Positions 1 to 55,991 of a stretch of DNA of 64,000 nucleotides are shown here, in pieces. Source of the stretch: Cenococcum geophilum 1.58 (lineage: Eukaryota; Ascomycota; Dothideomycetes; Gloniales; Gloniaceae). Under the pieces are notes generated by a model that saw only the letters and a list, made by a program, of their open reading frames with translations, was not told the DNA's origin and ran no database searches. The translations under genes and the position numbers were made by a program. The DNA lies in contig KV748176.1 of the NCBI GenBank assembly GCA_001692895.1, forward strand, positions 2,232,001 through 2,296,000, read 5' to 3'. Every line of letters begins with the position of its first letter. Position 1 is the stretch's first letter.

Positions 1-854
1 TTACCAAAAAGAATAGGTATCCTTTACCTTTAATTAGCGAAATCTAAGATAGGATAGGTAATGCGTAAATCTTTACAAAGATAGATCTAAGATAGGCGTA
101 CTATTAGATTAGAATTAAGGAAGGCAACAAATAAAAGGCAGCCTTTAGGTTAAAGGAAGGACTATATAAACTATTAGTTATACAATTCGGGCTTATAAAC
201 GCACTAGTAACGTTTTAAAAGCGTATTAATAATATATTAGGAGAACACTTAGATAAATTTATTATAGTATATTTTAATATTATTATTATTTACTTAATAA
301 CTAAGGAAGAATACAGAGAATATATTAAATGGGTTTTAAAGAGATTATAAGAAGAATAAATGCTAGTAGCAATTAAGAAATGCGAGTTCTTTACTAGGAA
401 GACCAATTTTATAGGATTTATTATTAAACTAGGCTAACTTAATATAGATCTAAAGAAGATCGAGGCTATAGTAAATTAGTAGGAACTAGAGAACGTTATA
501 TAATTAAGATTATTCTTAGGGTTTTGTAATTACTATAGAAGGTTTATAGCGTAATGGTTAAAGAATATTAAACCATTTACGCGACTAATAAAGAAAGAAG
601 AACTATAGGTATAGGGAAAGGAATAATAAGAACTATTTAAGAAAGTTAAAAGGTTATTTACCTAGGAGCTAGTTCTTAAGATCTATTAACTAGGTCTAGA
701 GACGGTTATAAAAACGAATGTATTAGACTTTATATTAGGGGCATACTTTATATAGAAATATCTAGACGGATGGCACCTAGTAGTATACTATAGTAGGAAG
801 ATAATACTACTAGAGTTAAACTATAACATTTATAATAAGGAGTTATTAGGTATA

Positions 855-1040
855 TATTACGGCTTATATAAATGCCTCTAAACCAAAGCTTGTAGAATGC
901 TGTATTACAAAGATACTAAGCTAAGGAGCAGAAGAAGGTCAAGGAAAGGATAGGTCTATATACACGAGCCAAGTCCCTAAGCGAGCCCCTAACTAGGCTG
1001 CATGTAAACGTCGCAGGGGCAGTGCCCTAGCGCCGTCACA
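855..1040. repeat. Left LTR of the LARD-like element
   Basis: This 186-bp copy matches 5246-5431 apart from about nine transitions. It starts right after the target duplication copy gtata (850-854). The minus strand shows a G-run ending in GGGGTAA immediately before the LTR, which resembles a polypurine tract. Confidence 0.9.
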
Positions 1041-1443
1041 TTACCCCCCCCCCCTTCCAAAAAAGCCTGCCCTTAGGCTTTATCCCCTTATAGAAAAGAA
1101 AGAAAAAGAAAAGAAAAAAAATCTAGTATCTAGCGCTTAATCGCAATGCTAGTTAACGTAGGACTTATAGCAGTCCTGCAGCTCCTACTACTATAGGGGT
1201 ATATTACTATACCTAGTTAACGTGGGGTAGGCAGCCGTCCTGCAGCTCCTACTACTACAAGAGGTATATCGCTAGGAGCCCTCTGTTAGTCGTTCCTCCT
1301 CTAGAACTCTAGTACCTCCTAGCTCTACTATCCCCCCTTTTATTATAGCGCGCCCCAAGCCATAAAAAAAGCCCCCCTACTCCTCCTCTTATAAAAAGGT
1401 AGGTAAAAAAGTTTTAATAAGGGTGGGAGGGTTAGGGAGTTAT

Positions 1444-4400
1444 AGCTCGCATATATATCGGCACAAGCTTTTATCCGTTTAGTAGTAGTACAGTGCTAGT
1501 AGTAGGGTCGTATTCTAAGGGGCAAAGCTCTCCCTTATATATAGTTATTACTACAAGCGGGGTAGTAGAAGTCAGTTATGGTGCTATAGGTAGGGCAGTA
1601 GGTATTAGTTAGCTACAGCAACATAGTAAGGTATTATATTTAGCTATAGGTGGAGCAGTAAAGGTCTAGTAGTAGTATAGTACTAGCGATAGGGTCGTTT
1701 GGGTGGCAGTATAATGCTAGTAATAGAGTTATATTCCATAAGCAAATCGGCACAGAATCTTATTAATAGGTCGTAGTTTTATAGGCATATTAGCGCGGAG
1801 CTTATCAATTCAGGTAGCAGTACGGTGCTAGCGGCAGAGTTGTATTTTAAGGAGCAAAGCTCTCCTTATATATAGTTATTACTGTAAGCAGGGCAGTAGA
1901 AGTTAGTTGTAGTGCTATAGGTAGAGCAGCGATAGTTAAATCGGGATCTGCTGTAGGCAGAGCAGCAAGGGTCTGTTTGTTTAGCTGCAGGCAGAGCAGT
2001 AGGTGTTAGTTTAGCTATAGGCGAAGCAGTAGAGGTCGAGTGTGGTACTGTAGGCAGAGTAGTAGAAGTCGGTTGGCTGCAGGCAGGGCAGTAAGTAGTT
2101 AATTAGCTGCAGGCAGAGTAGCAAGGGTAGTCGGCTGCTTATAAAGCAGTAAGGGTTAATTGGCTATAGGTAGAGCAGCGGAGGTCTATTATAAATAGCA
2201 GTACAGTGCAAGCGTTAGGTGGTAATAGTGGTTAAATATAGAACTCGGTCTATTAGTTAGTTAGTAAATTATAGGCGTATTAACACAATTGGTCTATTAG
2301 TTAGACTGTAGGCGTATTAACATAGTCGTTGTTAGGTTAGCGTAGGGCATGTAGCCGTCCTACTGCTACAAGAGGTGTATATCGCTAGGAGCCCTTTATA
2401 GTCATTATTCCTCCTTTTAAAACTTAGTACCTCCTAGCTCTCTACCTCCTCCTTTAATATAGCGCGCCCTAAGCTATAAAAAAAAATATAGCTCATATGC
2501 ATATCGGCACGAGCTCTTATTTATTCGGTAGTAGTATAGTGCTAGTATTAGGGTTGTATTTTAGGGAGCGAAGCTCTACCTTATATATAGTTATTACTAT
2601 AAGCGGGGCAGTAGAAGTTGGTAGTAGTGCTATAGGCAGAGTAGTAATGGTTAAATTGGGATTAGCTGCAGGTAGGGCAGTAAAAGTTAACTAGCTATAG
2701 CAAGGCAGTAAGGTGTTAGTTTAGCTGCGAGAGGTATATCGTAGAGGTCGGGTGGTAGTACGGTGCTAGCGTTAGATAGTAGATAGCAGGCGTATCGGCG
2801 CTATCATTGGTCGATTAATCGCAGGTATAACGGCACGATTAGTTAATCGGTTTGCATTTAAATCGCGTTTAAATTGCATTCGGATCGCAGGCGTATTGGC
2901 GCGATTATTATCTAGTTTGTCTAAATCGATTTCATTGTTAAAGCTTTACAGCTTAGTATTAACCTCGTTGTCGAAGTATATAAATGCCTGAGGTAAGCTT
3001 ATATAACTCAGTATTAACCGTAGTCGTTCCTTAGTATGCGTAGCTTAGTGTTAGTTAAAAAGGATCACCGTAGGTTAAGAAGAAGATAATTAAATTAGTA
3101 AGGGAGCAGTTAATCGTTAATAAACTTATACGGTCGTTATTAAAGTTATAGTTCGTGTCGCAGGTATATCGGCACGACGGTCGGTCGGGTTCGCGTTCGG
3201 ATCGCATTCGGATTGTAGGCGTAATGGCACGATCCGTCTATCGGTTTCTTAAGGTCTACTATTAATTGGTAGGTAGTTTGAGACGTTATTAATTATTCAA
3301 TTAATTAATATGCCATTAACTAGTAGAGATACTATCGTACTACTAGCCACAGTTGATCGATTGGTTTAAGGTATGCTATTAATCGTAGTATATTTAACCA
3401 GTTATTATATAAGTAGGGTATTAAGGGAGACGCGCCGATAGGTTGATTCTCGTTAAGGTATTAATTAGTTAAAGTATACTGTTGATTATAGTATATTTAA
3501 TAATTTAACAGGAATTGATTAGGGTATCGGTATATAGTTTGTTAATATTCTTATAATTCTTAGAACAGGTTGTTGTAATATAGTAAACGTATTTAAGTGT
3601 TATTAGGAGATTCAAAGGTACGCTATAGGGTTAGCAGCCGTATTCGAATATTTATATTTGATTGAGGATATCGCTTTAAGTGACGGATATCCAGGGTCGA
3701 TCGAGGACTCGTAGGAATGCCGTTGATTTGGCATATTAAGTCGTTATTAGAGAGGTATTAAAAGAGGTATTAAGAAGGTGCGTGTTGATATTTTAATTCT
3801 TTATTAAAGAGTCAAAGGTATTAAAGAAAGAGTGCGCTTTAATATTCGAGCATAGTTATTTAAGGGTAAGCTATAATATAGTATTTAAAGAGAAAAGAAG
3901 AGATACTACTAGATAGCAGATTCATAGCTTATCGTTTAAAGGAGGACTGCCATTAAGTAGTAGGTAGTTTGAGGGTAGTCAATAAATGGTATTAAGAGGG
4001 TACGTATTGATATTTCGATTCTTATTAACGAATGGTGAGACATACTTTTGTAATAGTAGGCTATCTCGTTTATAGAAGGTCGTATAAAAGGCTATTAAGA
4101 AAAAACTTGATAGTTTATAAGAGGTTGTGGAGATAAATAGGCTCATCTGCAGAGCTATTTGGGGAGTGCCATAAATCGGAATAATTTTCCTAATTTGTTC
4201 TCCTAATTAAGAGTGCTATAAATTACTTAAATTCTCCCCCAGATTCCTAGTACCCCTGTACGTAGGACTGTAATGCTTATAGATGTATTCGGCCGTAAGA
4301 TCGAGAGACTGTCTAGGTTAATAGTAAGGTTCAGGTCGATTAGGTACGGTAGTTGTTAATAAGAACTTAACGTATATCTATAAGGCGTTTATAGACAAGT

Positions 4401-4547
4401 CAGAGAGTCATATCGCAGGTATATCGGCGCGACAGGTTATCGGGTTTGCTTTTAAATCCCTTTTGGGCCGCATTCGAATCGCAGGCGTATCGCAGGCGTA
4501 TCGGCGCAATCGTTAGTTAATCAGACTGTAGGTATATCGGCATAGTC
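1444..4547. repeat. Dispersed hairpin family with conserved 14-nt loop and variable paired stems
   Basis: The loop consensus is CAGGYRTATCGGCR. Stem pairs with loop positions: AGCTCG/CAAGCT (1450-1463), AATTA/CAATT (2272-2285), GACTG/TAGTC (2309-2322), AGCTCA/CGAGCT (2496-2509), GATAG/CTATC (2787-2800), TAATCG/CGATTA (2822-2835), ATCG/CGAT (2888-2901), GTCG/CGAC (3161-3174), CGGATTG/CGATCCG (3216-3229), GACTG/TAGTC (4529-4542). Weaker or rearranged copies lie near 1736, 1780, 4416 and 4480. Stem sequences differ by transversions as well as transitions yet remain paired, apart from a few G-U or C-to-T type mismatches. No copies were seen outside this element. Function unknown. Confidence 0.75.
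1580..2720. repeat. Second hairpin family, GCTG/CAGC stems around loop CAGGCAGAG
   Basis: About ten irregularly spaced copies of a short unit have a 9-nt loop (CAGGCAGAG and close variants) between GCTG-like and CAGC-like arms. Clear copies have arms at 1949-1953/1963-1967, 2046-2050/2060-2064 (TACTG/TAGTA) and 2105-2109/2119-2123. A third unit, arms TAGCA/TGCTA around GTACGG, is best seen at 1815-1830, with variants near 1480, 1675 and 2525. The stem changes in these two families are all C-T or G-A, so RIP acting on both arms could produce them without any selection for pairing. Confidence 0.55.
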
Positions 4548-4695
4548 GGTAATCGGGTTTAAGGGTTTAGGGTAGTAATATAGTGCCAGCGATAGGTCCT
4601 TCCTAATTAATTTCCGACTCTCCTTATACAGCTCAGTATTAATCGGGGTGGTTATTATAGTAGTAGTAGCTAGAGAACAACGGATAGAATTCGTT

Positions 4696-4865
4696 CTAGA
4701 GGACTCGCGGACAACATACACCTACCGCCTAATGGCACGGCGCGGGTTATGTCTTAGCTTGTCTTAGCCGTTAGCCTAAACCTAATGCATACTAGAGGAC
4801 TTCGCGGACAACATGCACCTACTGCCCAATGGCACGGCGCGGGTTATGTCTCAGCTTATCTTAGC
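4696..4865. repeat. Tandem duplication of about 73 bp (period 96)
   Basis: 4696-4768 and 4792-4865 are near copies, both starting CTAGAGGAC and containing GGCACGGCGCGGGTTATGTC. They differ mostly by transitions. This part of the LARD-like element (about 4690-5245) is clearly richer in G+C and less RIP-worn than the rest of its interior. Confidence 0.8.
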
Positions 4866-5245
4866 TAACACTGCAGGATCAGTTCCAGGCTCTAGACAGG
4901 ATCACTTCGTTCCTCGCGGCCCTAGGCTAAGTCTCAACCGAGGTCGTCTCTGCAGCTCGTACAACTCCGTGTCAGTTAAAAAGGTTAGAGGGGTGGTAAG
5001 ATATTATTGCTTTCCCAGGCAGTCGTCCTTATCCACAGGAGACCTTCTAGCTGCTTAAATACCGGCTCCCAGTATCAATAATAGCGACTCGACGCGTCGA
5101 CGACGCGCAGCTAGGGGTGTTTGACGCGTGTCCTCCTAGAACACGCGGAACGGGGGTGGGAGATTATCCAGGCCTTCCCAGGCGAGGTAAAGAGGGAGCT
5201 TTAAAACGAATGAAGTCCCCCCCGGGGTAGGTAAGCTTAGTATAA

Positions 5246-5431
5246 TGTTACGGCTCGTACAAATGCCTCTAAACCAAAGCTTGTAGAATGCTATATTACG
5301 AAGATACTAAGCTAAGGAGCAGAAGAAGGTCGAGGAAAGGATAGGTCTATATACACGAGCCAAGTCCCTAAGCGAGCCCCTGACTAGGCTGCATGTAAAC
5401 GTCGCAGGGGCAGTGCCCCAGCGCCGTCACA
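5246..5431. repeat. Right LTR of the LARD-like element
   Basis: This 186-bp copy is the less mutated of the two. It starts TGTTACGGC, ends GCCGTCACA, and is followed by gtata (5432-5436). Confidence 0.9.
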
Positions 5432-7491
5432 GTATAGTTACAGTATTAAAGAAATAGAGAGTATTTTTATAAGGTATAGAGAAACCATTTATAATTAAAA
5501 TAGATTATAAAAACTTAACGGGATTCTTAATAATAAAGAAACTTAATTAAAGATAGGTTAGATGGGTAGAGATGCTTATAGAATACTATTTTAAGATTTA
5601 GTATATTAAGGGTACAGATAATATAAGGGCAGATGCTTTAAGTTAAAAAGCTAAACTATAAAATAATAAAAAGCCATTAGGGACTTTACTGCGAAAAGAT
5701 ACAGATAGACTAATTAGGTATAATTATCCAAAAATTATAATAATTTAAAAAGAACTAGATAGAGTTTATAAGTTACCAAAAAGCTTTTAGGTATAAAGAA
5801 TCTTTAAGGTATAGCTAGAAGAGCAGTTAGAATACCTAGGAGAAGAAGTATTATATAAGTATAGAGAGGCAAAGTACATCCTAAAACGCATAGTAGAACA
5901 CTTTATAGAAGATTTCTATAAAGGACTAACTTAAGGACACAATAGAGCTATAGGCTTAGTGTTAAGACTTTAGGAGAAGTATATTATTAATAGAATCTAG
6001 AACCTAGTATAGAAGGTTATAAAGGAATATCTAAATTGCTAAAGAAATAAACTAACGAGGCATAAGCCATATAGAGGGCTATAACCTATTAAAATACCAG
6101 AGAGACTATAGGAGGTTATATTATAGGACTTTATTATAAAGCTACTAAAGTTAAAAGATCCTATTACCGGATAAGATTATAATATAATTTTAGTAATAGT
6201 GGATAAGCTTATAAAGTGGGGATACTTTATAGCGTATACAGAAGAAATATTAGTAGAAGATATTACTAGAATCTATATTAAGGAAGTATTTATAAGATAT
6301 AGAGCACTAAGTAAAATTATATTAGATAGGGATCTAAGATTTATAGCAGTATTCTAGGAGGTATTTTTAGCGGAATAAGGAGTTAGAGCAGTAACTTCTA
6401 CTATATATTATCCGCAGACAGATAGTTAAATAGAAAGACTAAACTAGACACTAGAGTAGTATTTAAAACACTATATTAATTACGCATAGAACAATTAGGT
6501 ATTATTATTACTAGTTATATAGTTTACATACAATATAACACCATAAAAAGAAATGGGTACATTACTATTTAAGGCGAATTACGGGTATAAGCCAAGAACA
6601 TCGTTATTGCTACGTTAAGTAAAGAAGATAAGTAGCACAGCTAAGTAAAGAATAGAGACATTAATAAATCTTTATAAGAATCTCATAGAAATAGCTAAAG
6701 TAGTATAATAGAAAATAAAAAAGTATTATAATGCTAAGAGATCTAAGGGACTAGATCTTAAGGAGGGAGATAAAGTATGGCTACTATATAAAAATTTTAA
6801 GAGTTAACAATTAAGTAAGAAATTAGACTATATTAGACTAGGACCTTTTAAAATTATATAAAGAATTTTACCAGTTACGTTTAAATTAAACCTACTAGCT
6901 AAAATAAAAATCTACCCTATATAGTATATTGCAATACTAGAGCTAGTATATAGGAATATTAAGCTACTAGTTTATAAAGCAGACACGTATAAAGGATAGG
7001 AAGAAGATAAATAGTAAGTTTTAAAGATTATTAGTTATAAGGACGTTAATAATAAAACATAGTATAAGGTAAAGTAGATAGGCTATAATAAGACTACCTA
7101 AAAGCTACTAAAGAACCTAAGGAACGCTATAGGAAAAGTATAGGAGTATTAGAAGAGATTAGGTTAGGTAATATTAATAAAAAAGGATTGTTAAAGAATA
7201 AATCGCTTAAAGGGGACCTAGGAGGAACAGCTACTAAGCTATTTAAAGTTATTTCCTTTTTAGCTAAGAGAGGATTAGTCCTCTCATTACTAAGTTCTTA
7301 TAGACCCTATTCTATAAGTTTCTACTCCTTAGAGCGAACTTTCTTACGCACCTTCTTAAGATAAAGCAGCTAAGTAAATACCGTAATGCGAGTATTTAAG
7401 GCCTTCTACTCTGCGTTATAAGAACGTTCCAGCTTAATAAGAGCCTGCGTTAGATTACCGTCTAGTTTTATAGCAACGGATTAAATATAAG

Positions 7492-7709
7492 TATATAATT
7501 ACAGCACCTAGTATACGAACGCGTATTTACGCGTTTGTGCACCAACTACGTACGTGCTGACTAATCAGGGGGGAGGCGCGTCAGTATATAGACCACGTAG
7601 TCTACCTTAATAGAATCGACAGTTACCACCATCCTAAAGAGCATATAATACTATACGTATTTCGTGCCCCGGGATATGACTTACTTATGCTATTAAATTA
7701 ATACGAACA
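7492..7709 (+). repeat. 5' LTR of Copia-A
   Basis: This 218-bp repeat is matched by 13564-13781. I could not recognise a primer-binding site just downstream, where RIP may have erased it. Confidence 0.88.
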
Positions 7710-10700
7710 CTAATTAGTGAGCGCGCACAGATCAGCAATTACTTGATACCTCCCCCGAGCGATACTTAACAGCGACCACCCATTTAGACTCCTAGTACGA
7801 CCTGCTAGAAGGTCGGAAGTTGGGGATTACGGACTATCACCAACTCTGTATACTTATTTAAGTCTTAATACGGTTTACTAGAAGTTATAGACGCGAATAC
7901 AGACCTTTACGGAACCCCCTATCCTTAACTCCCTTAAACCCTAAACCTCTTCGGACCTTACGGAAACCCCTTACCCTTCTACAAACCGTTACGGACCCGT
8001 TAATCGCCTTTACGGACCACTATAAGACCCCTTAAACTGTTATAGACCCGCTAATTGATTTTACGGACCGTTATAAGACCTCCTCTACCCGCTATAAGCT
8101 ACTATAGCCCGCCATAGCTTATATAGATATATAACGCTATATAATATGGCAGATATAAGCAAGCAAATTAGTAAAGGTTAAAAGAAGTGGAGCTAAGGAG
8201 TCAATCTCACGTCTACGGACGACGTTAACGACTACATTAATTTTAAAATCCTTAAATACAGACACTATAAGCTTCTAAACAACGACCTATGGGAGTAATA
8301 TAAGGAAGACTTTACGGACTTTACGGAAGCTATTCTTAAGACTTATAACCCTACTACTATCCGTAACCTACGAACCCTTTTACGTCACCAAGGTGTATAG
8401 GTTAAAAAAGATAAANNAGTTACTNTTNNANGGTCCTTATATAANATAATATAGGAGGAGGACCAAACGGAATAGACTAAAGAGAAAATCCTAAACTAGG
8501 TTAAAGCTATAAATAATCTCTCTGCTTCTCCTAAACTTAATGGCATCACTAGCCTTATACCTAACCTACTTAACCAAATTCGTCCTATAAACCTAAGCAA
8601 TTTTAAAATTAATCTTATGGGCTAAAGCATACCCAGTACCTAAGTTATGGACCGTAATACCCCCGTAAACCAAAATATAGACTAAAACCCTTCCGTTAAT
8701 AAAGCTATAAATCTATAACCTACCTAAGTCATAGATCCGCAAGCTATATATCCGCAAACCACATATCCGCAAGCTATATATCCGNAAGCCACAGATCCGC
8801 AAGTTATAGATCTATAACGCGCCCAAGTAAAGACCTATGGTAAGGAACTAGCTAACCTAGCTAAGCTCTATACCGACGAATCTAAGTACAGTAGTAAAAA
8901 CGATAATTTTAACTTTAAACTAACTATCTTTACGAACCTTTGCCAAAAGGCTAATATTCCTAAACAAGAGTTCAGCCAAGCCTACTCTACTATGCTACGC
9001 GGCCTAGCACTTAACCACTACTACACCAACCTTAAGAGCAACCCCCTTGGTGTTCCCTTTAATAAGCTATATAAAGCTACCCGTAACTACTTTAAAGGAC
9101 CGGAATATAAGCATAATATCCTTACCTAATAGAATGCGACTAAGCTACGGACCGTAATTAACAAGAACACTAAAAAATCGACTATAGAGTGCCTGCAAAT
9201 TCTCATTAAAGACCTCCGGTACCTATAGCACGGCCTTAACGCTAAGTTTTAAACAGACGACTTCCTGTATAACAAACTTATTACGGCCTACTAGGAAGTA
9301 AAGCCCTATAAGTACGCCTATTATAAGCCTACAGACACCTTAGCTGGCCTTATTAATAATCTACGCTCCTCTATTATAACGTACGAAGTCTTAAACCCAC
9401 CAGGCAGCACTTAAGCCTTTACTGCGGATATTTAATATCCGTAAACAGACTTAGACGTCTACTTTACGGACCGCCGCTACCGCTAGCAGTACCCGTACTA
9501 ACCAAGTCCCACCCGTAACCCCTATAGTAACTCCCGTACGAAAATATACCCCCGCAGACGGACCAGCTAGAAGTGCTTTATATGCGGTAAGGAAGGATAT
9601 TAGTCTATAAGGTATACCTAGGAAGAACGTAACAAGTCTAGGAAGAGACTTAATAGCCATATTAGCCAGTTTATTTTAGAATACAAAGGAGAGGAAGTAG
9701 AAGAGCCCCCTAATAAGTCAATAGAAGCCCTTATAATTAACTTTAACTTAGACGCTTAGGAATAAGAGACCTTAGAGATATTCCTAACTACTTTTAGACC
9801 TTTTACGGACAGCCAAGCCTTTAATATCACGACTATATTAGCCGACCGTTCCTTTATACACTCAGTTGCGCCTAAAAACTATTCTATAAGCACCCCCGTT
9901 ACGGACGTTATAGATTATAAGTAGGACCTATTTGCATATATCACCACAGAACGCTATACCCCTAAGGAATTCTACGGTGTTATAATCGACATAGGTGCCT
10001 CTAAGAAGTCTACCGCAGGCTATAGATAATACCTTATATATAGGACCACCACAAATAATAATATAGACATTGATATTATGCAAACTGGGGCTATAACCGT
10101 CCAATTTGGCATTGGCTTAACTGCATTAATCAGATTAGTAGCAGTTAAGACTCTAATTAGCCTAGTTAACTTCCATATAGTAAAAGCGGACACCCCTTTC
10201 CTACTCTGCCTTGCGGATATAGATAGGTTATAGGTATACTACAATAACGTTACGGACACCCTAATCGGCCCTACAACTACCCTAGGAAGTAAGTATATTA
10301 CCCTACTAATTATATAACAATTCGGACACCTATTCCTTATATAGGGAGAGACCTTATGGACGTATATTTAGGAATCTTTTGACTATAACCCGTGCTACCT
10401 TACTAGTACGGAAATCTACCGCCTATACCGCTGTTTCGGCTACCCATTAGCTAAAAAGCTATATAGAGTCCTTAAACACTCTGGATATAACGATGTTAAT
10501 AGGAAGGCAATTAACTACCTAACTAAATACTACTCCTACTGCTAGAAATACAGATATTCTCTAGGCTAATTTAAGTTCACCCTTTATAAGGATCTTGACT
10601 TTAACCACTTAGTATACATAGATATTATGTATATTAACGGCAGCCTAGTACTATATATAATTAATAAGGTAACCCGTTATTAAGCCGCCCGTTAGTTATA

Positions 10701-14880: not shown

Positions 14881-17800
14881 ATTCCATCTCAATTCCCATC
14901 TGCCTATCAGTCAAATGACTCCACCGAGGTCGAGTTCGTCTACCACGATCATCCTCAATAAGCCAGAAGACTGGGAGCAATGGATCTGGCAACTACAAGC
15001 CCTCGTGGACAAACGAATTTGGGCCCACGTTGACCCAGACAAGGAAGCACCTCAACGAGGTCTACTACAAGAACCAGCCTATCCAGAAGTCACAGATTTC
15101 AACGAGAATGCAACCTCATATGCACAGCTCTCGACGAATCAACAGAGGGCGTACGAGAACAGCAGACGATACTACGACCAGGACATGAAGTATTTCCTGA
15201 AACAAGAAGAGCACCTTCAAAAGATCCGCACCTAAATCACGTCCACAGTATCGATTCAGAAGAAGCTACTGCTTGACCCTTCCTTGACAGTCAAAGAATG
15301 GCTATCTCGACTGAAGGAGAACACAGAACCTACCTCGTCGTTCGTCAGGAAGAAGGTACAACACCAGTACACGGAAGCCCTCAAGGGGTTCAAACACTTG
15401 TTAAAATTGAATCAGTGGTTAGATTAATGGGAATATGCAATGGTACTAGGAGAGAAGTACAAGATCCCTCAAATGTTCGATGGAATCTGGCTTCAAGAAT
15501 TGGCAGAAGTTATTCGACCTTTCAGCGACGCCTATTGTATGAAGTATACTACCGAGTCGAATGACCCTCAGAAGTCGAGATCTTCCGAATACCGCAGAGT
15601 AGCAAAGGAGCTGCAAGAAGGACTCAGAATACCCTCGAAGAAAGCCAATGCTACTACAAGAGGGAGTACCTTTAATGCAGACTTCGCAGAGCAAGCCACG
15701 ATGGATCACTCTGATACTACTAAAGGTCCAGGGAAAGGAACCTCAGCACGTACTAGACGCTCGAAGAGAGCCGGGTCACTGGTAGACGAGGAGACGTCCC
15801 GCAAGAAGCTACTACCCGTGTGCTTGGCGTGCGAGAAACGAGGACATTCCCTACAGGACTGTTGGTATTTATTTGAAGATAAGAGACCCGAAGGAGTCAC
15901 CATCGGAGATGCTCGCATCAAAAGGGTGCTGAAGAAGGTAGAAAAGAATAAGGATCTCGCTGACCAAGTTGCAAAGATCAGACTTGAAGAACAGGAAGAC
16001 GAGGCTTGACAACGACAGGACGAGAGCCAGGAAGTCAAGATCAAGGGAGAAGCTAATGCGATATTCCTAGAATCGTATCATACAGGTCAAATCCATCCAC
16101 TAAAGCTATCGACTATTCTTGACTCAGGAACCACTCTCCATATCTTCAATAACCTCTCTCGTTTCTATAACTTTAGGAAAGCTCCAAGACTCGAATACGT
16201 CATCGCCGGCAGCTCAGAAGTGCCTATACTAGGCTACGGCGACGTCACTGTCCAAGTTACAAAACCAGACAAGAGCAAGGGAATCCTACGCCTTAAGGAC
16301 GTTGCCTTTTGTACGGACTTCAATACGAATCTAGTGTCGTTCCGTCTACTTCGAAAATGAGGGTACTACTAGGACAATAAAGGAGAGAACAATCTTCTAG
16401 TTCGAAAGGATGACTCAGTCCTATGTCAAATGGAAGAACGTCACGGACAACAGACTATCGAATACATCCGACCAGGAAGTCTATCAGCGTTTAATACAAG
16501 CCGACTGCTACGCCAACGGAAGCGCAGAGCATCATCAAGAGACGCTCGTCCAGATTCGAAAGGAGATGCACGTCTATGGCATCTGCGTCTAGGTCATCCA
16601 GGACCTATGAGCCTTTATCATTTAGGTCTCAACGCCTTAGGAGTCAAGCTTCGAGGCCCAAAGACGACGGAATGTTAACATTGCAGTCTTGCCAAAATCA
16701 AGCGTCAGGTCTTAAGAAGGTTCTCGGAACGGAAGATCGATAAACCCTATCTTGACCTCCATATTGACTGGACTGACCTTAAGGAAGCGCATGCTGGATT
16801 TGTACGAGTTATGTTCATCCACGACACCTTCTCAGGAAGAACCTTCTCGTATTTTATGACGACGCATGGCGAGGAGAAGGAGACACTACGAGTGCTTAAA
16901 GATTTCACCTAATGGATTCGTCTAAGGTACAACCTCAAAGTCAATACCATCAGATCAGACAACGAGCTAGGGAGAAGGAGAACCCTTAAATGGCTACGGA
17001 CGCAAGGGATTACATTCGAGCCTTTGGCGCCACATACGCAAGCACAGAACGGTACCGCCGAACGCTCAGGGGGTGTTATTATTGAGAAAGGACGTGCCAT
17101 GAGAATTGCTGCCAATCTACCACATGATCTATGGAACGAGATAGTTAACTGTGCAGTGTACCTTCGAGATCGAACGCCACGAGAAAGCAATGGATGGAAA
17201 TCGCTATATGAGAGGTTCTATACCTACCTAGCGAATGGGAGATCAAGAAAACCGCAACTGGCGCACCTGAAAGCCTACGGCTGTAGAGCGTACGCGATGA
17301 CGTCGGACGCCCAGCTGAAGAAGAAAAGGCTGAGCAAGCTAGATCCGCGAGCTCATATCGGCTACCTCGTTGGCTATGACTCTACCAATATCTACAGGAT
17401 CTGGATCCCACACAAGGGTATCGTCATCTCTACAAGGGATGTCATCTTCGACGAAAAGACGTTCTTCGACGGCAAGCGAACGGACATCTCAGAGGACCTA
17501 CACGCTGAATTAGATACACTGATCGAGAAGATTCAACTACCTGATACCCAGACCAAGAACGAGGTCCTTCTGGAAGACGATGAAGAAGTACTTGAACCGT
17601 CAATTTAAGAGGAAGATGACGACGTCGATGAGCCAGTTCAAGCCTTTGATGAGTTAGCAGATCTCGAGCTTGCAAGAGCCCTCGAAGATGCGTACTGTAC
17701 ACCACCTCCAACAGAAGAAGACGAAGAATCTCCATGTGCCTTTCACGTCGAGTATCCTACGAAGTTAGATGTACAAGGTACTGATCAAGACGTCGCTCAT

Positions 17801-19821
17801 CGAGCAGGAGATGCGTTTAATACTTAGGGGGTGCCCAACGACTCAGTCAAAGACTCGTTCAAGGAAGCCAGCGATAATAGGTTTGAAGACTTTATTACCA
17901 AAAGGATCACGTCAGCCTATCACGGCGCCTTCTTAGCAGGAAGGAAGTTTAACCTCGACAGTCGACTCAACGACAGCAAGCTGAAATCAGGCAGAACACG
18001 CGATGTCAGATTACATAGGAAGAACCTACCTCCGCCACCCTAGTCAATCCGGGACCTTAATACGCATCCTCTTCAAGATCAGTTCCAAGAGGCTCAACGA
18101 GCCTATCTCCAATCTTATCATCAAATGAGGTCGTTTCAAGAAACAGATAAGAAGCACGCAAAGGGACAGCAGGTCCTCAGCTCAATGTGGGTGTTCGTCT
18201 ACAAGATAGACAAGCACGGATTTCTCCAGAAATGCAAGGCACGCTTAGTAGTCTGCGGAAATCAACAGGCCCCAGGAGACCTACCTACGAGAGCTACTAC
18301 ATTAGCTAGTACGACCTTCCGAACCCTTATGGCGATCACTGCAAAATTCAACCTGGAGACGACACAGATAGATGCAGTCAATGCGTTTGTCCATTGCGAT
18401 CTCGACGAGGTTGTCTACATGAAGCTACCGCCAGGGTTCAATAAAGGAAAGACAGACAAAGTACTGCGCTTAAGAAAAGCCCTGTACGGACTACGACGAT
18501 CACCACTGCTATGGCAGAAGAATCTCACGAGCTCATTGAACGAATTGGGTTTCAAAGAAGTACCCCAGGAGCCGTGTGTCATGCTAAAAGGTGGAATAGT
18601 CGTCTTCTTCTACGTCGACGATATTGTCTTCTGCTACCGAAAGACAGATGAGAAGAAAGCTCAAGAAGCAATTAAGGAGCTAAGCAAGGAATACCAGATG
18701 AGTACCCTTGGCGAGCTAAAATGGTTCCTAGGAATCCACGTGCTACGCGATCGTAGCCAGAGGCTCCTGTGGCTATCCCAGGAAGCCTATATAGAGAAGA
18801 TAGCTAATTAGTATGAGATAGATCTCAGAGGGCGTCTTCCAGACACTCCTATAGCAGAATCGGAACTCCTCCCTACCGATCACCGTATGATCCGTCTGAC
18901 GCCTCCGTCCCCCGATACAGACCTATTAGTCCGTCCTATATCCCTACCAGCCTCTACGATGCTATATCAGAGAAAATTGGGTTCAGTACTCTATGCAGCC
19001 ACTACGACGCGTCCGGATATTGCCTTCGCAGTATCACGGCTGGCAAGGTTCAATCAGAACCCAAGCCAAGAGCATCATCGAGCGGCAGAAAGAGTCATCC
19101 AGTACCTGTATGGCACGAGAAGCAGAGCAATCTGCTATGAAGGAGATGAGGAAGGAACGAACGGTAGAGGGAGAGACAAAGGAATACGCGACAAAGGACG
19201 AGACGACGGAAGAGACGGTGCGCAATCATTTATCTGTGCCAGCGACGCATTATTCGCGGACAACTCCGTCGACAGAAAGAGCTCGCAAGGATACATTATG
19301 AAGCTATTTGGGGGGCCGATCGCCTGGAGAGCAAATAAGCAGGGTACGGTTACGACGTCGAGCACAGAAGCCGAGTTGTTAGCCCTATTATAGACAGCAA
19401 AGGAAGCTATCTTTATCAGCAGGCTGTTTAAAGCAATGACGCTACGCCTGAACGAGCCCTTGATTATCAAATGCGACAACACCCAGACGCTCCGACTGAT
19501 CACAGAAGACACGGCAAAGCTGATCACGAAGCTCCGACACGTTGACATCCATTGACACTGGCTACGTCAGGAATACGCAATGAGACGAGTATGATTTCAA
19601 TGGACAGCGACGAAGGAGATGATCGCCGATGGACTTACGAAGGCCCTGCCCAAGCAGAGGTTTCAAAGCTTCGTTAATATGATCGGAATGGTGGATATCA
19701 AGGAGCGGCTAAATAAGGAGAAGCAACTGGAGGACCTCAGGGACAGTATCAGAGCAAGACGGAAGGATTCAGATGAGATTACGGTTCAATTGACGCATTA
19801 ACGAGCACGAGAAGGGTCACC

Positions 19822-42300: not shown

Positions 42301-45300
42301 GCATATTAAGTATAAAAAGTAAATAAAGTATTAGCTAAAAGTAGACTAAGTATAAACAGGATCTAGCAGCTAATAGTTAGGAAAAGTAGAGGCTTACGGG
42401 ACTAGGGGAAACTAGTAGTAGAGCCTTAAACCCTTAAAGGAATTTAAGGACGACACCTAAATTTATAAGTTAAATGGTAAGATTAACAGTTCGAAGCATT
42501 AGTAGATAGTAGAGCAATAAGGAACTATATCTCACTAATAGCAGTAAAAAGGATAAGGCTACTATATAGATAAAAGGAGCACCCTTATCTATTAATTACA
42601 ATTTTAGGAGATCTAATAGCCTATAGAGGAGGCATTATTAATCTCAAAACAGGACCTATTTAGATAACTATTAAAGGGAGATAAATTAAGATGTCTTTTA
42701 ATATATTACTATTAGGGAACGATAAGGTAGTATTAGGAATACTTTAGTTATAAAAATACAATCTAAAGATTAATTGGGTTATAGGTTAGGTTAATATTAG
42801 AGATATATAATAACGTAAGATATAATAATAAACTAAGTTAGTATGGTACTAAGTTGGAGCAATATATAAAGAAACTAATTAAGGATTAAGTTATGTACTA
42901 AAGAGATACCATAAATATAGCAAAAAGTTATAGTTACTAGAAAGTGAAAAGCTGTTAGAATATATAGCATGGGACTATAAGATAGAATTAGAAGAGGGAA
43001 TAAGTCTAAGGTTTTTTCCAATTTATAAGCTTACCGAAGAAGAAAGTAGAGCACTAAAAGAGTTTATCTAGAAGAATCTTTAAAAGGGATATATTAGACC
43101 ATCGCAGTCATTAGTAGGTTATCTAGTACTATTCATACTAAAGAAGAATAGAAAACTAAGACTATGCATTAACTATAGACAGTTAAACAGTATCACTAAA
43201 AAAAATAGGTATTCTTTACCCTTAATTAGCGAAATTTAAGATAGGATAGGTAATATGTAAATCTTTACAAAGATAGATCTAAGGTAGGCGTACTATTAGA
43301 TTAGAATTAAGGAAGGCGATAAATAGAAGGCAGCCTTTAGGTTAAAGGAAGGATTATATAAACTACTAGTTATACAATTTAGGCTTATAAACACACTAGT
43401 AACATTTTAGAAGCGTATTAATAATATATTAAGAGAACACTTAGATAAGTTTATTATAGTATACCTCAATAATATTATTATCTACTTAATAAATAAGGAA
43501 GAATATAAGGAACATGTTAAATAGGTTTTAAAGAGACTACAAGAAGAATAAATATTAGTAGTAATTAAGAAATGCGAGTTCTTTACTAAAAAGACCGATT
43601 TTGTTAAATTTATTATTAAACTAGGCTAACTTAGTATAGATCCAAAAAGATCGAGGCTATAGTAAATTGGTAAGAACTAAAGAATGTAATATAGTTAAGG
43701 TTATTCCTAGGGTTTTACAATTACTGCAGAAGGTTTATAACTTAATAGTTAAAGAATATTAAGCTATTTACAAAATTAATAAAGAAAGAAGAACTATGGG
43801 TATAGGGAGAGGAATAAAAGGAACTATTTAAGAGAGTTAAATAGTTGTTTGCCTAGGAACCAGTTCTTAAAATCTATTAACTATAGTTAGAGACAGTGGT
43901 CGAAACGGATATATTAGACTATATACTAGGAGCGTGCTTTCTATAGAGATATAAGGATAAATAGCACCTAGTAGCATACTATAGTTGGAAGATAATACTG
44001 CTAGAGTTAAACTATAACATCTACAATAAGGAGTTATTAGGTATAGTTATAGCACTTAAGAAATAAAGAGCATTCTTACAAGGTATAGAAAAACTATTTN
44101 TAGTTAAGACGGATTATAAGAACCTAATGGGGTTCCTAATAATAAAAGAACTTAATTAGAGATAGGTTAGATAGGCGGAAATACTTATAGAATACTATTT
44201 TAAAATTTAGTATATTAAGGGTACTAAAAATGCGAGAGCTGACGCGCTAAGCAGAAAAACTAAACTATAAAACGATGAAAAGCTATTAGGGGCTTTGTTA
44301 TAAAAAGACACAGACGGATTAATTAGATATAATTATCTAAAAATTATAGTAACACGAGAAGAACAGATCCATAACTTACTAGAGAGTAATTAAATATAGA
44401 AGATCTAAGATATATAGGTAGAGGATCTAGACTTAGAGCAGTACAAAAATTAAGAGATAATATATATGCTAAGGTCTATTACAGAAGAGTTTATTAAGAT
44501 ATTTTATAAGGGATTAACTTAAGGATATAATGGAGCTATAGGCTTAGTATTAAGACTTTAAGAAGAGTATATTATTAATAGAATCTAGGGACTAACAAGA
44601 TAAGTTATAAAGGAATATCTAGATTACTAAAGAAATAAACTAATAAGGTATAAGCTATACGGAGAGCTACAACCTGTTAAAATACTAGAGAGACTATAGG
44701 AGGTTATATTATAGGACTTTATTATAAAGTTACTAAAATTAAGAGATTCTATTACCGGATAAGACCACGACGCGATTTTAGTAATAGTAGATAAGCTTAT
44801 AAAGTGGGGATGCTTTATAACATGTATAAAAGAAATATTAGCGGAAGATATTGCTAAAATCTATATTAAGGAAGTATTTGTAAGATATAGAGCATTAAGT
44901 AAAATTATATTAGATAGAGATCTAAGATTTATAGTAATATTTTAGGAAGTGTTTTTAGCAGAGTAAGGGGTTCGAGCAGTAACTTTTACCGTATATTATC
45001 TATAGACAGACGGTTAAACGGAAAGATTAAATTAGACGCTAGAATAGTATCTAAGGCATTATATTAATTATATACAGAATAATTGGGTATCGCTATTACT
45101 AGTTATATAGTTTATATACAATACAATACTATAAGAAGGAATGGGTATGTCACTATTTAAGGCGAATTATAGATATAAGCCAAGAACCTTATTATCGCCA
45201 TGTTAAGTAAAAAAGACGAGTAGTATAGCCAAGTAAAGGATGGAGAATTTAATAAATCTTTATATAAACCTTATGGAAATAGCTAAGGTAGTATAGTAAA

Positions 45301-45763
45301 GAATAAAGAAGTATTATAATACTAAGAGATCTAAGGGACCAGATCTTAAGGAGGGGGATAAAGTATAGCTACTATATAAAAATTTTAAGAGTTGATAATT
45401 AAGTAAGAAGTTGGACTATATTAAACTAAAACCTTTTAAAATTATATAAAAAATTTTATTAGTTATATTTAAGTTAAACCTACTAGCTAAAATAAAGATC
45501 TACCCTATATAGTATATTGCAATACTAGAGCCAGCATACGGGAATATTAAGCCACTAATCTATAAGGCAGACACGTATAGAGGATAAGAAAAGGACGAAT
45601 AGTAAGTTTTAAAGATCATTAGTTATAAGGACGTTAATAATAAAATATAGTATAAAGTAAAGTAGATAGGCTATAATAAGACTACCTAGAAACCACTAGA
45701 GAACCTAAAAAACGCTATAGAAAAGGTACAGAAGTATTAGAAGAAAAGAGGTTAGGTGGTATT

Positions 45764-55385: not shown

Positions 55386-55478
55386 TATAGAAAGATAGTA
55401 AGTGGGTAAAAAAGAGGCAGAAGACGGCTAAGGAAAAGGTAGCTATAGCGGCAGCCGTAACTATAGGGGAGGAAGCTA

Positions 55479-55989
55479 TCCCTTAACCCGCTAGCGTCCT
55501 ACCGGAAGCTGGTCCGTGCCCGAACACCAAAATGAAAATAATATGTATGGCTAATTACTATTAACAATGCCTTCTAATTGTACTCCTAATAATATAGGCC
55601 TTGTCCAACCGACTTAGTATAACGTTCAGCCAAATTGATATGCTAAAAAGCCACCACCGAAGCCATGGCCGCTGCCCGATTTTACTCCTACGACAATTCG
55701 ATTTGGTTGATCTGATTGGCTAGTCCTACCGTTATCGATAAGGACTAGCCAATCAGATCAACCAAATCGAATTGTCGTAGGAGTAAAATCGGGCAGCGGC
55801 CATGGCTTCGGTGGTGGCTTTTTAGCATATTAATTTGGCTGAACGTTATACTAAGTTGGTTGGACAAGGCCTATATTATTAGGAGTACAATTAGAAGGCA
55901 ATGTTAATAGTAATTAGCCATATATATTATTTTTATTTTAGTGTTTGGGCACAGACTAGCTTCTAATAAGACGCTGGCGGGTTAAGGGA
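55479..55989. mobile_element. Fold-back MITE, 511 bp, TA target duplication
   Basis: Both halves are near-perfect inverted copies of each other for about 250 bp, with a centre of roughly a dozen bases near 55728-55741. The termini are TCCCTTAACCCGC at both ends (read inward), with TA on each side (55477-55478 and 55990-55991), as for Tc1/mariner-type elements. The arms differ at only a modest number of sites. No coding capacity. Normal composition, so probably later than the RIP phase of its surroundings. Confidence 0.9.
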
Positions 55990-55991
55990 TA

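Follow-up and report, generated by a model that had tools for sequence, protein, structure and literature searches.

Large retrotransposon derivatives (LARDs) were reportedly first described in barley and its relatives by Kalendar et al. in 2004, and the long terminal repeats (LTRs) of plant LARDs are kilobases long. To our knowledge, the packaging of protein-less LTR elements by helper elements is poorly understood. Here we describe a protein-less LTR element at positions 855-5431 of a 64-kb stretch of the genome of the ascomycete Cenococcum geophilum 1.58 (contig KV748176.1, positions 2,232,001 to 2,296,000; hereafter the window, to which all positions refer), the whole analysis covering this one element copy. 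Its interior contains 14 hairpins with a conserved core and with arms that covary, double transversions being compensated. The element resembles LARDs in combining LTRs with an internal domain of several kb without protein coding (PMC7215508), but its LTRs are short (186 nt), and its structure consists of arrayed hairpins of a single type, whose loop is fixed. Since LARDs are described in the same source as carrying well-conserved RNA structures (PMC7215508), the kind of element is already known.

Mini-Ty1 elements that retain only the element ends are mobilised by a helper Ty1 and require structured RNA (PMC5454406). Assembly of RNA viruses such as MS2 is considered to be guided by dispersed stem-loops that have a motif in common (PMC6281560). 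The array described here similarly consists of several stem-loops, 14 in number, that share a motif while other sequence varies, but the viral signals act with virus capsids on coding RNA, whereas the present hairpins have at most a hypothetical protein reader and seem to descend from a single repeat. Mitochondrial double-hairpin and repetitive hairpin-forming elements are likewise short repeated hairpins, some of them paired, as are neighbours here at 35-43 nt. The present array, in contrast, lies inside an LTR element and combines a fixed loop with variable stems, which is the opposite of what is described for sponge elements (PMC2800124). No fungal LTR element with such a hairpin array was found among the listed titles and abstract openings of open-licence papers, which is no proof of absence.

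Covariation of the hairpin arms

Scanning both strands of the whole window for at least 12 of the 14 consensus letters of the core CAGGYRTATCGGCR gave 26 matches, 19 on the plus strand (15 of them inside the element) and seven on the minus strand (none inside it). After omission of the match at 4482, a slippage duplicate overlapping that at 4493, the remaining 14 copies in the element align without gaps and in one orientation, each core being enclosed by 5-nt arms (Table 1). A covariance model assigned 23.7-35.3 bits to the 14 members, which match by construction because the model was trained on them, and 13.0 bits to the runner-up elsewhere in the window. A sequence-only model separated the members (12.6-21.0 bits) from an overlapping place at 4477 (10.1 bits) and from the next match (4.8 bits), so that their detection is independent of structure. 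Outside the element, neither the loop scan nor the covariance model found a core flanked by pairing arms anywhere in the window, and Rfam gave no match at gathering score in the window and none up to E 1 in 850-5440.

Counted from the core, arm positions 1-5 form Watson-Crick pairs in 8, 9, 13, 13 and 10 of the 14 copies. If G.T and A.C are also counted as paired, because a C-to-T change of one partner leaves them, the numbers become 14, 14, 14, 14 and 13. Position 6 is paired in six copies whichever way pairs are counted, and at positions 7-12 pairing does not exceed that of permuted arms; damage-tolerant pairing ends at position 4 or 5 in eight rows and reaches 6-12 in six. At position 1 only G.C, A.C and G.T occur, and variation is found mostly at positions 2-5. 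The imperfect copy 4493 is unpaired at position 5 in the ungapped alignment, but has an 11-nt duplication of CGCAGGCGTAT (4480-4490 and 4491-4501) beside its left arm, and read across this duplication its arms are consistent at all five positions. Neighbours lie at distances of 35, 36, 37 or 43 nt, giving a double-hairpin outline. By eye, an 11-nt unit like GCRTTYRRATC can be counted two or three times per linker between neighbouring hairpins (2840-2890, 3180-3215 and 4434-4480).

A first-pass annotation of this DNA had proposed at least ten hairpins with a conserved 14-nt loop. The observation was confirmed, with the number raised to 14 and the loop corrected: the outer core letters (Y1-R14) form a Watson-Crick pair in 10 of 14 copies, but letters 2 and 13 of the core are always A and C, so that the helix measures 5+1 bp in most copies and the loop proper 12 nt. 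The stems it had named were recovered, namely GATAG/CTATC (2787), TAATCG/CGATTA (2822) and GTCG/CGAC (3161) as written, AGCTCG/CGAGCT at 1450 and 2496, each carrying a single G-to-A-type difference in one of its arms, the GACTG stem as GACTG/TAGTC (2309 and 4529), and the CGGATCG stem as CGGATTG/CGATCCG (3216).

Repeat-induced point mutation (RIP) makes transitions only; transversions, and with them the purine/pyrimidine class of a nucleotide, are beyond its reach. Watson-Crick pairs occupy 53 of the 70 arm cells (positions 1-5), whereas sets of 14 positions taken at random from the element reached at most 36 in 100,000 draws. With C-to-T damage counted, pairing extends to 69 of the 70. None of 20000 permutations of the right arms reached the observed pairing, either over positions 1-6 or over positions 3-6. 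When the partner columns of the 6-pair helix were slid by 1-3 columns, the covariation score fell from 0.698 to 0.092-0.154 at the six other offsets. A tree was inferred from core and flanks with the stems left out, and columns were simulated on it independently, paired at the start and with the observed numbers of change. None of 5000 simulations at each of three transition biases reached the observed 53 Watson-Crick cells (means 24-26, maximum 43), nor did any of 10000 simulations over 40 random trees (maximum 43). Purine/pyrimidine pairing, observed in 69 of 70 cells, had maxima of 56-64 in the tree and random-tree nulls.

With related copies collapsed to one hand-picked copy per group (n=9; 1450, 3216, 4416, 4493 and 4529 left out, the imperfect 4493 thus among the omitted copies), 2 of 50000 permutations were as high for Watson-Crick pairing and 10 of 50000 for purine-pyrimidine pairing. 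Among the purine/pyrimidine arm pairs there are six distinct types, five of them matching. The numbers of transversions in left and right arms are equal in 78 of the 91 copy pairs, which are not independent; the other 13 must all involve 4493, because the remaining 13 copies are paired throughout. Of the 78 copy pairs without 4493, again not independent, 60 have a transversion between their left arms. As far as one element can show, the pairing is not explained by chance or by descent in larger blocks, which the first-pass annotation had set against its own proposal. Its statement that the stems change by transversions and yet stay paired survived permutation, tree and random-tree nulls and collapsing, except that some pairs of copies (2272/2309 and 2822/4529) differ by transitions only.

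Homologous flanks were sought by comparing the 30 nt outside the arms in all 91 copy pairs with random element pairs, for which the 95% point was 12.2 and the 99.9% point 28.1. Both flanks exceeded the 95% point in six pairs, where about 0.2 would be expected under independence. Compensated transversions separate the arms in three of them, 1739/2272 (two per arm), 1739/2496 (one) and 4416/4529 (one). The other three, 1739/1782, 2272/2309 and 2822/4529, have transition-only differences that RIP could make, and 1739/1782 and 2272/2309 are neighbours with overlapping 30-nt flanks. In a further seven pairs, one flank exceeded the 99.9% point without both exceeding the 95% point; transversion numbers are equal in five, and the other two involve 4493. 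Matching flanks together with compensated transversions indicate that stems changed in place in at least some copies, for which insertion of a mini-element is not needed.

Anatomy of the element and its other hairpin families

An A+T-rich repeat takes up the first 7 kb of the window and is interrupted by the element. Self-blastn aligned 3-854 with 43195-44045 (87%) and 5432-7175 with 44041-45763 (82%), the overlap of the two alignments being the 5-bp target. The two LTRs differ at nine sites by transitions only, with A or T in the 855-1040 copy at eight of them. They have TG..CA ends, the LTR at 5246-5431 reading TGTTACGG..CGTCACA on the plus strand, and the other begins with TA, one G-to-A-type difference from TG. 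The element is a coding-less, LARD-like and non-autonomous LTR retroelement: the longest open stretch of the interior (1041-5245) has 90 aa, and ten of its 19 open stretches of at least 50 aa were scanned against Pfam without a match above cut-off, two weak matches (E 0.026 and 0.34) lying below it. The 5-bp duplication GTATA bounds the two LTRs, and the paralogous copy of the target at 43195-45763 is an empty site. Pfam likewise gave no match for seven pieces, free of stops, from the target repeat and its paralog.

The order of polypurine tract, LTRs and primer site identifies the minus strand as the sense strand. The element would be transcribed from this strand, and its RNA would contain the hairpins given here in complementary form. 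In Tf1-type self-priming, the primer site lies just inside the LTR and is complementary to the 5' end of the mRNA. The putative primer site ATACTAAGCT is complementary over 10 nt to LTR positions 119-128 (5304-5313), 40 nt after the start of a TATATA motif at LTR position 79 on the minus strand. Equal complementarity occurred in 6 of 5000 shuffles. The sequence would fit self-priming of this type. In the place of the putative primer site and the distance of its LTR complement from a TATA-like box, the element resembles Tf1-type elements and fungal chromoviruses, but no gag, pol or chromodomain was recognised in it.

There is a residual chance that coding sequence in the interior was lost to RIP. 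The ratio (CA+TG)/(AC+GT) is 0.57-0.68 in three interior segments, 1.00 in the LTR and 1.23 in a host-gene stretch, a dinucleotide composition that supports RIP-type C-to-T damage of the interior. On the plus strand of 1044-5245, TpG is more depleted than CpA (0.44 vs 0.77 of expectation), a strand-asymmetric C-to-T trace. Close to the 5' end of the element as read on the minus strand, 4688-4865 contains an imperfect direct duplication, spaced by 96-97 nt and with 89-92% identity.

Table 1. Positions of the element, its terminal features and its hairpins in the window. Hairpins are given with left/right arm and are based on alignment, arm pairing and covariance model, unless remarked otherwise.
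Feature	Positions	Strand	Remarks
LTR (3' LTR of minus-strand element)	855..1040	-	186 nt; ~95% identity to 5246-5431
LTR (5' LTR of minus-strand element)	5246..5431	-	186 nt; minus strand TGTGACGGC...GCCGTAACA
Target-site duplication GTATA, left	850..854		junctions and empty-site copy
Target-site duplication GTATA, right	5432..5436		junctions and empty-site copy
Paralogous target repeat without element (empty site)	43195..45763		self-blastn
Polypurine tract GGAAGGGGGGGGGGGTAA adjoining 3' LTR	1041..1058	-	TTTTTT before it at 1059-1064
Putative self-primer binding site ATACTAAGCT	5234..5243	-	2 nt inside 5' LTR
Hairpin 1450, GCTCG/CAAGC	1445..1468		
Hairpin 1739, TTCCA/CAGAA	1734..1757		
Hairpin 1782, TTTTA/CGGAG	1777..1800		purine-pyrimidine consistent run of 7 bp
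Hairpin 2272, AATTA/CAATT	2267..2290		
Hairpin 2309, GACTG/TAGTC	2304..2327		
Hairpin 2496, GCTCA/CGAGC	2491..2514		
Hairpin 2787, GATAG/CTATC	2782..2805		
Hairpin 2822, AATCG/CGATT	2817..2840		
Hairpin 2888, GATCG/CGATT	2883..2906		
Hairpin 3161, TGTCG/CGACG	3156..3179		
Hairpin 3216, GATTG/CGATC	3211..3234		
Hairpin 4416, TATCG/CGACA	4411..4434		
Hairpin 4493, AATCG (4477-4481)/CAATC (4507-4511)	4477..4511		core lengthened by 11-nt tandem duplication
Hairpin 4529, GACTG/TAGTC	4524..4547		
Second family, core like CAGGCAGAG, RCTG/CAGY-like arms	1549..2682		15 copies; internal control
Third family, 6-nt core near GTAYRG, TAGCA/TGCTA-like arms pairing over 5	1483..4588		7 copies; weaker eighth at 2201

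The second hairpin family served as an internal control. Fifteen of 17 core matches in the element were used, those at 3410 and 5179 being dropped for lack of arms, and no covariation was detected: 52 of 75 cells are Watson-Crick compared to a permuted mean of 50.1, and 6312 of 20000 permutations were as high; a further test gave the same outcome. It was accordingly dropped as a source of additional covariation evidence. The first and second family have the core start G|CAGGY in common, which suggests that they are akin. Cores of the third family start at 1488, 1675, 1709, 1820, 2534, 2758 and 4578. Hairpin density as such was considered and rejected as the finding: the element interior contains 28 perfect stems of at least 6 bp against 14.9 in 30 shuffles (standard deviation 4.5), but the flanking repeat at 5440-7900 is also in excess, with 27 against 17.7.

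Self-blastn detected no second copy of the element in the window, nor was a relative found. In viral contigs, the LTR pattern and a 20-nt hairpin pattern had no match, and an 18-nt hairpin pattern matched once in each of 11 contigs at 16.1-19.0 bits, compared to 23.7 for the lowest member, which we read as chance. At least 120 stretches of bacterial and archaeal contigs matched the 18-nt pattern; the 80 listed have one match each and are likewise read as chance.

Possible functions and origins of the array

The covariation of the first family and the conservation of a core between arms that drift but remain paired suggest that the RNA, or else the DNA, is recognised by its shape, and lead us to favour an array for RNA binding. 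Core sequence and arm complementarity would be retained while the arm sequence drifts, the pairing having presumably been maintained in the RNA of the element before this copy was mutated, and each hairpin would present the same loop to an RNA-binding protein. That selection on RNA shape has kept the array, with the loop read by such a protein, is our tentative preference, at a little under an even chance. A protein-less element would have to be packaged in trans, and the array might offer a helper repeated, mutation-tolerant packaging sites. The likeliest reader would be the Gag or nucleocapsid protein of an autonomous self-priming LTR element that packages this RNA, a proposal that is nevertheless somewhat unlikely when taken on its own, a host RNA-binding protein being the alternative reader. 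Still more doubtful is the full picture of a parasite that has shed all its proteins and turned its interior into a dispersed packaging code. The Gag of a self-priming helper would then read a few dozen hairpins belonging to three families, among which the family with the longest loop keeps this loop fixed while its stems, though paired, drift freely. If it were true, the redundancy of the packaging hairpins would make the signal tolerant of RIP-type damage. In any case, a single molecule with 14 internal replicates whose stems covary provides a ready-made test of shape as packaging signal, and the presence of one covarying and one non-covarying family in it offers a natural setting in which to tell selection on RNA shape from mutation by template switching. 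The interpretation given in the first-pass annotation, a structure kept for its shape and perhaps used in packaging, is partly supported.

Several observations weigh against selection on RNA shape and packaging by a helper. An autonomous partner with the same hairpins was not found in the window by self-blastn or the covariance model. One measure fails to discriminate: five pairs changed on both sides, and 267 of 500 shuffles reached this number. On the tree, core columns changed 0-4 times (mean 1.6), stem columns 2-7 times (mean 4.6) and flank columns 4.8 times on average; stems thus change about as often as flanks, though compensation should slow them, and this fits template switching too. 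The analysis is based on one element copy with 14 hairpins that are partly related and have mosaic flanks, and on a tree from 38 columns. Conservation of the core is partly a matter of ascertainment, the copies having been found by their core, and wobble is uninformative about the strand, with eight A.C and eight G.T at positions 1-5.

Template switching at quasi-palindromes during replication or reverse transcription, which copies one arm into the other, is the strongest rival and can mimic covariation by a mutational and not a selective process. It has been proposed for RNA genes, and multiple compensatory changes are reported to be statistically enriched in rRNA histories (PMC8794818). Besides the pace of change in the stems, it could explain that several arm positions differ at once, as between 1739 and 2787 (five of five left and four of five right) and between 1739 and 2496 (three and four). 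However, a single event leaves one arm as it was, so that differing stems need mutation and then switching, repeatedly. Furthermore, the core is conserved, the length of the arms is alike across copies, most of which stop at 4 or 5, and the second hairpin family in the same molecule does not covary. We regard template switching as unlikely, though a serious contender. A different user of the RNA, either a host protein acting in export, stability or escape from silencing, or loop-loop dimerisation, would be supported by the same covariation evidence as packaging by Gag. In Ty1, two hairpin apices were proposed to kiss, their complementarity being needed for RNA stability and retrotransposition (PMC5454406). 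As a candidate host protein is lacking, we consider such a user distinctly unlikely.

The first-pass annotation had also raised a mini-element acting at the DNA level, which would insert with, or generate, 5-bp inverted flanks around a fixed core of 14-16 nt. Short arms of similar length, the conserved core, the single orientation and the strong one-sided flank matches in 7 of 91 pairs would agree with it, and mitochondrial double-hairpin elements are discussed as mobile (PMC7218506). The idea is nevertheless weakened by the pairs in which both flanks match, three of the six having arms that differ by compensated transversions; by the absence of other cores with paired arms from the 64 kb; and by the reversed conservation of stems and loops in the sponge elements (PMC2800124). 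We consider it very unlikely, even though other copies share one flank only. Hardly tenable is an origin from a degenerate coding repeat, from chance pairing or from RIP on both arms. Peptides like [IV]AG[VI]SAR are encoded by the core on the plus strand in the open stretches 2776-2991 and 4328-4516, but the cores start in all three frames, on which ground a coding peptide repeat was rejected, and neighbours are spaced by 35, 36, 37 and 43 nt. RIP on both arms could have produced the transition-only pairs 2272/2309 and 2822/4529, whereas purine/pyrimidine pairing is significant by itself, which argues against both RIP and chance. Selection on RNA shape remains the reading that we favour.

Other features of the window

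Outside the element and its target repeat, remains of a Copia-type element with retroviral SH3-like and RVT_2 domains are located at 16913-18811. The minus-strand stretch 25881-27149 matches the Tom37/GST_C_6 family and was the only host-gene match among nine stretches scanned; together with the RIP-type composition it suggests a fungal host. A tblastn search of this Tom37-like stretch against plasmids gave no match. At 55477-55991 lies a large palindrome, which agreed at 93% with its reverse complement across 516 aligned columns.

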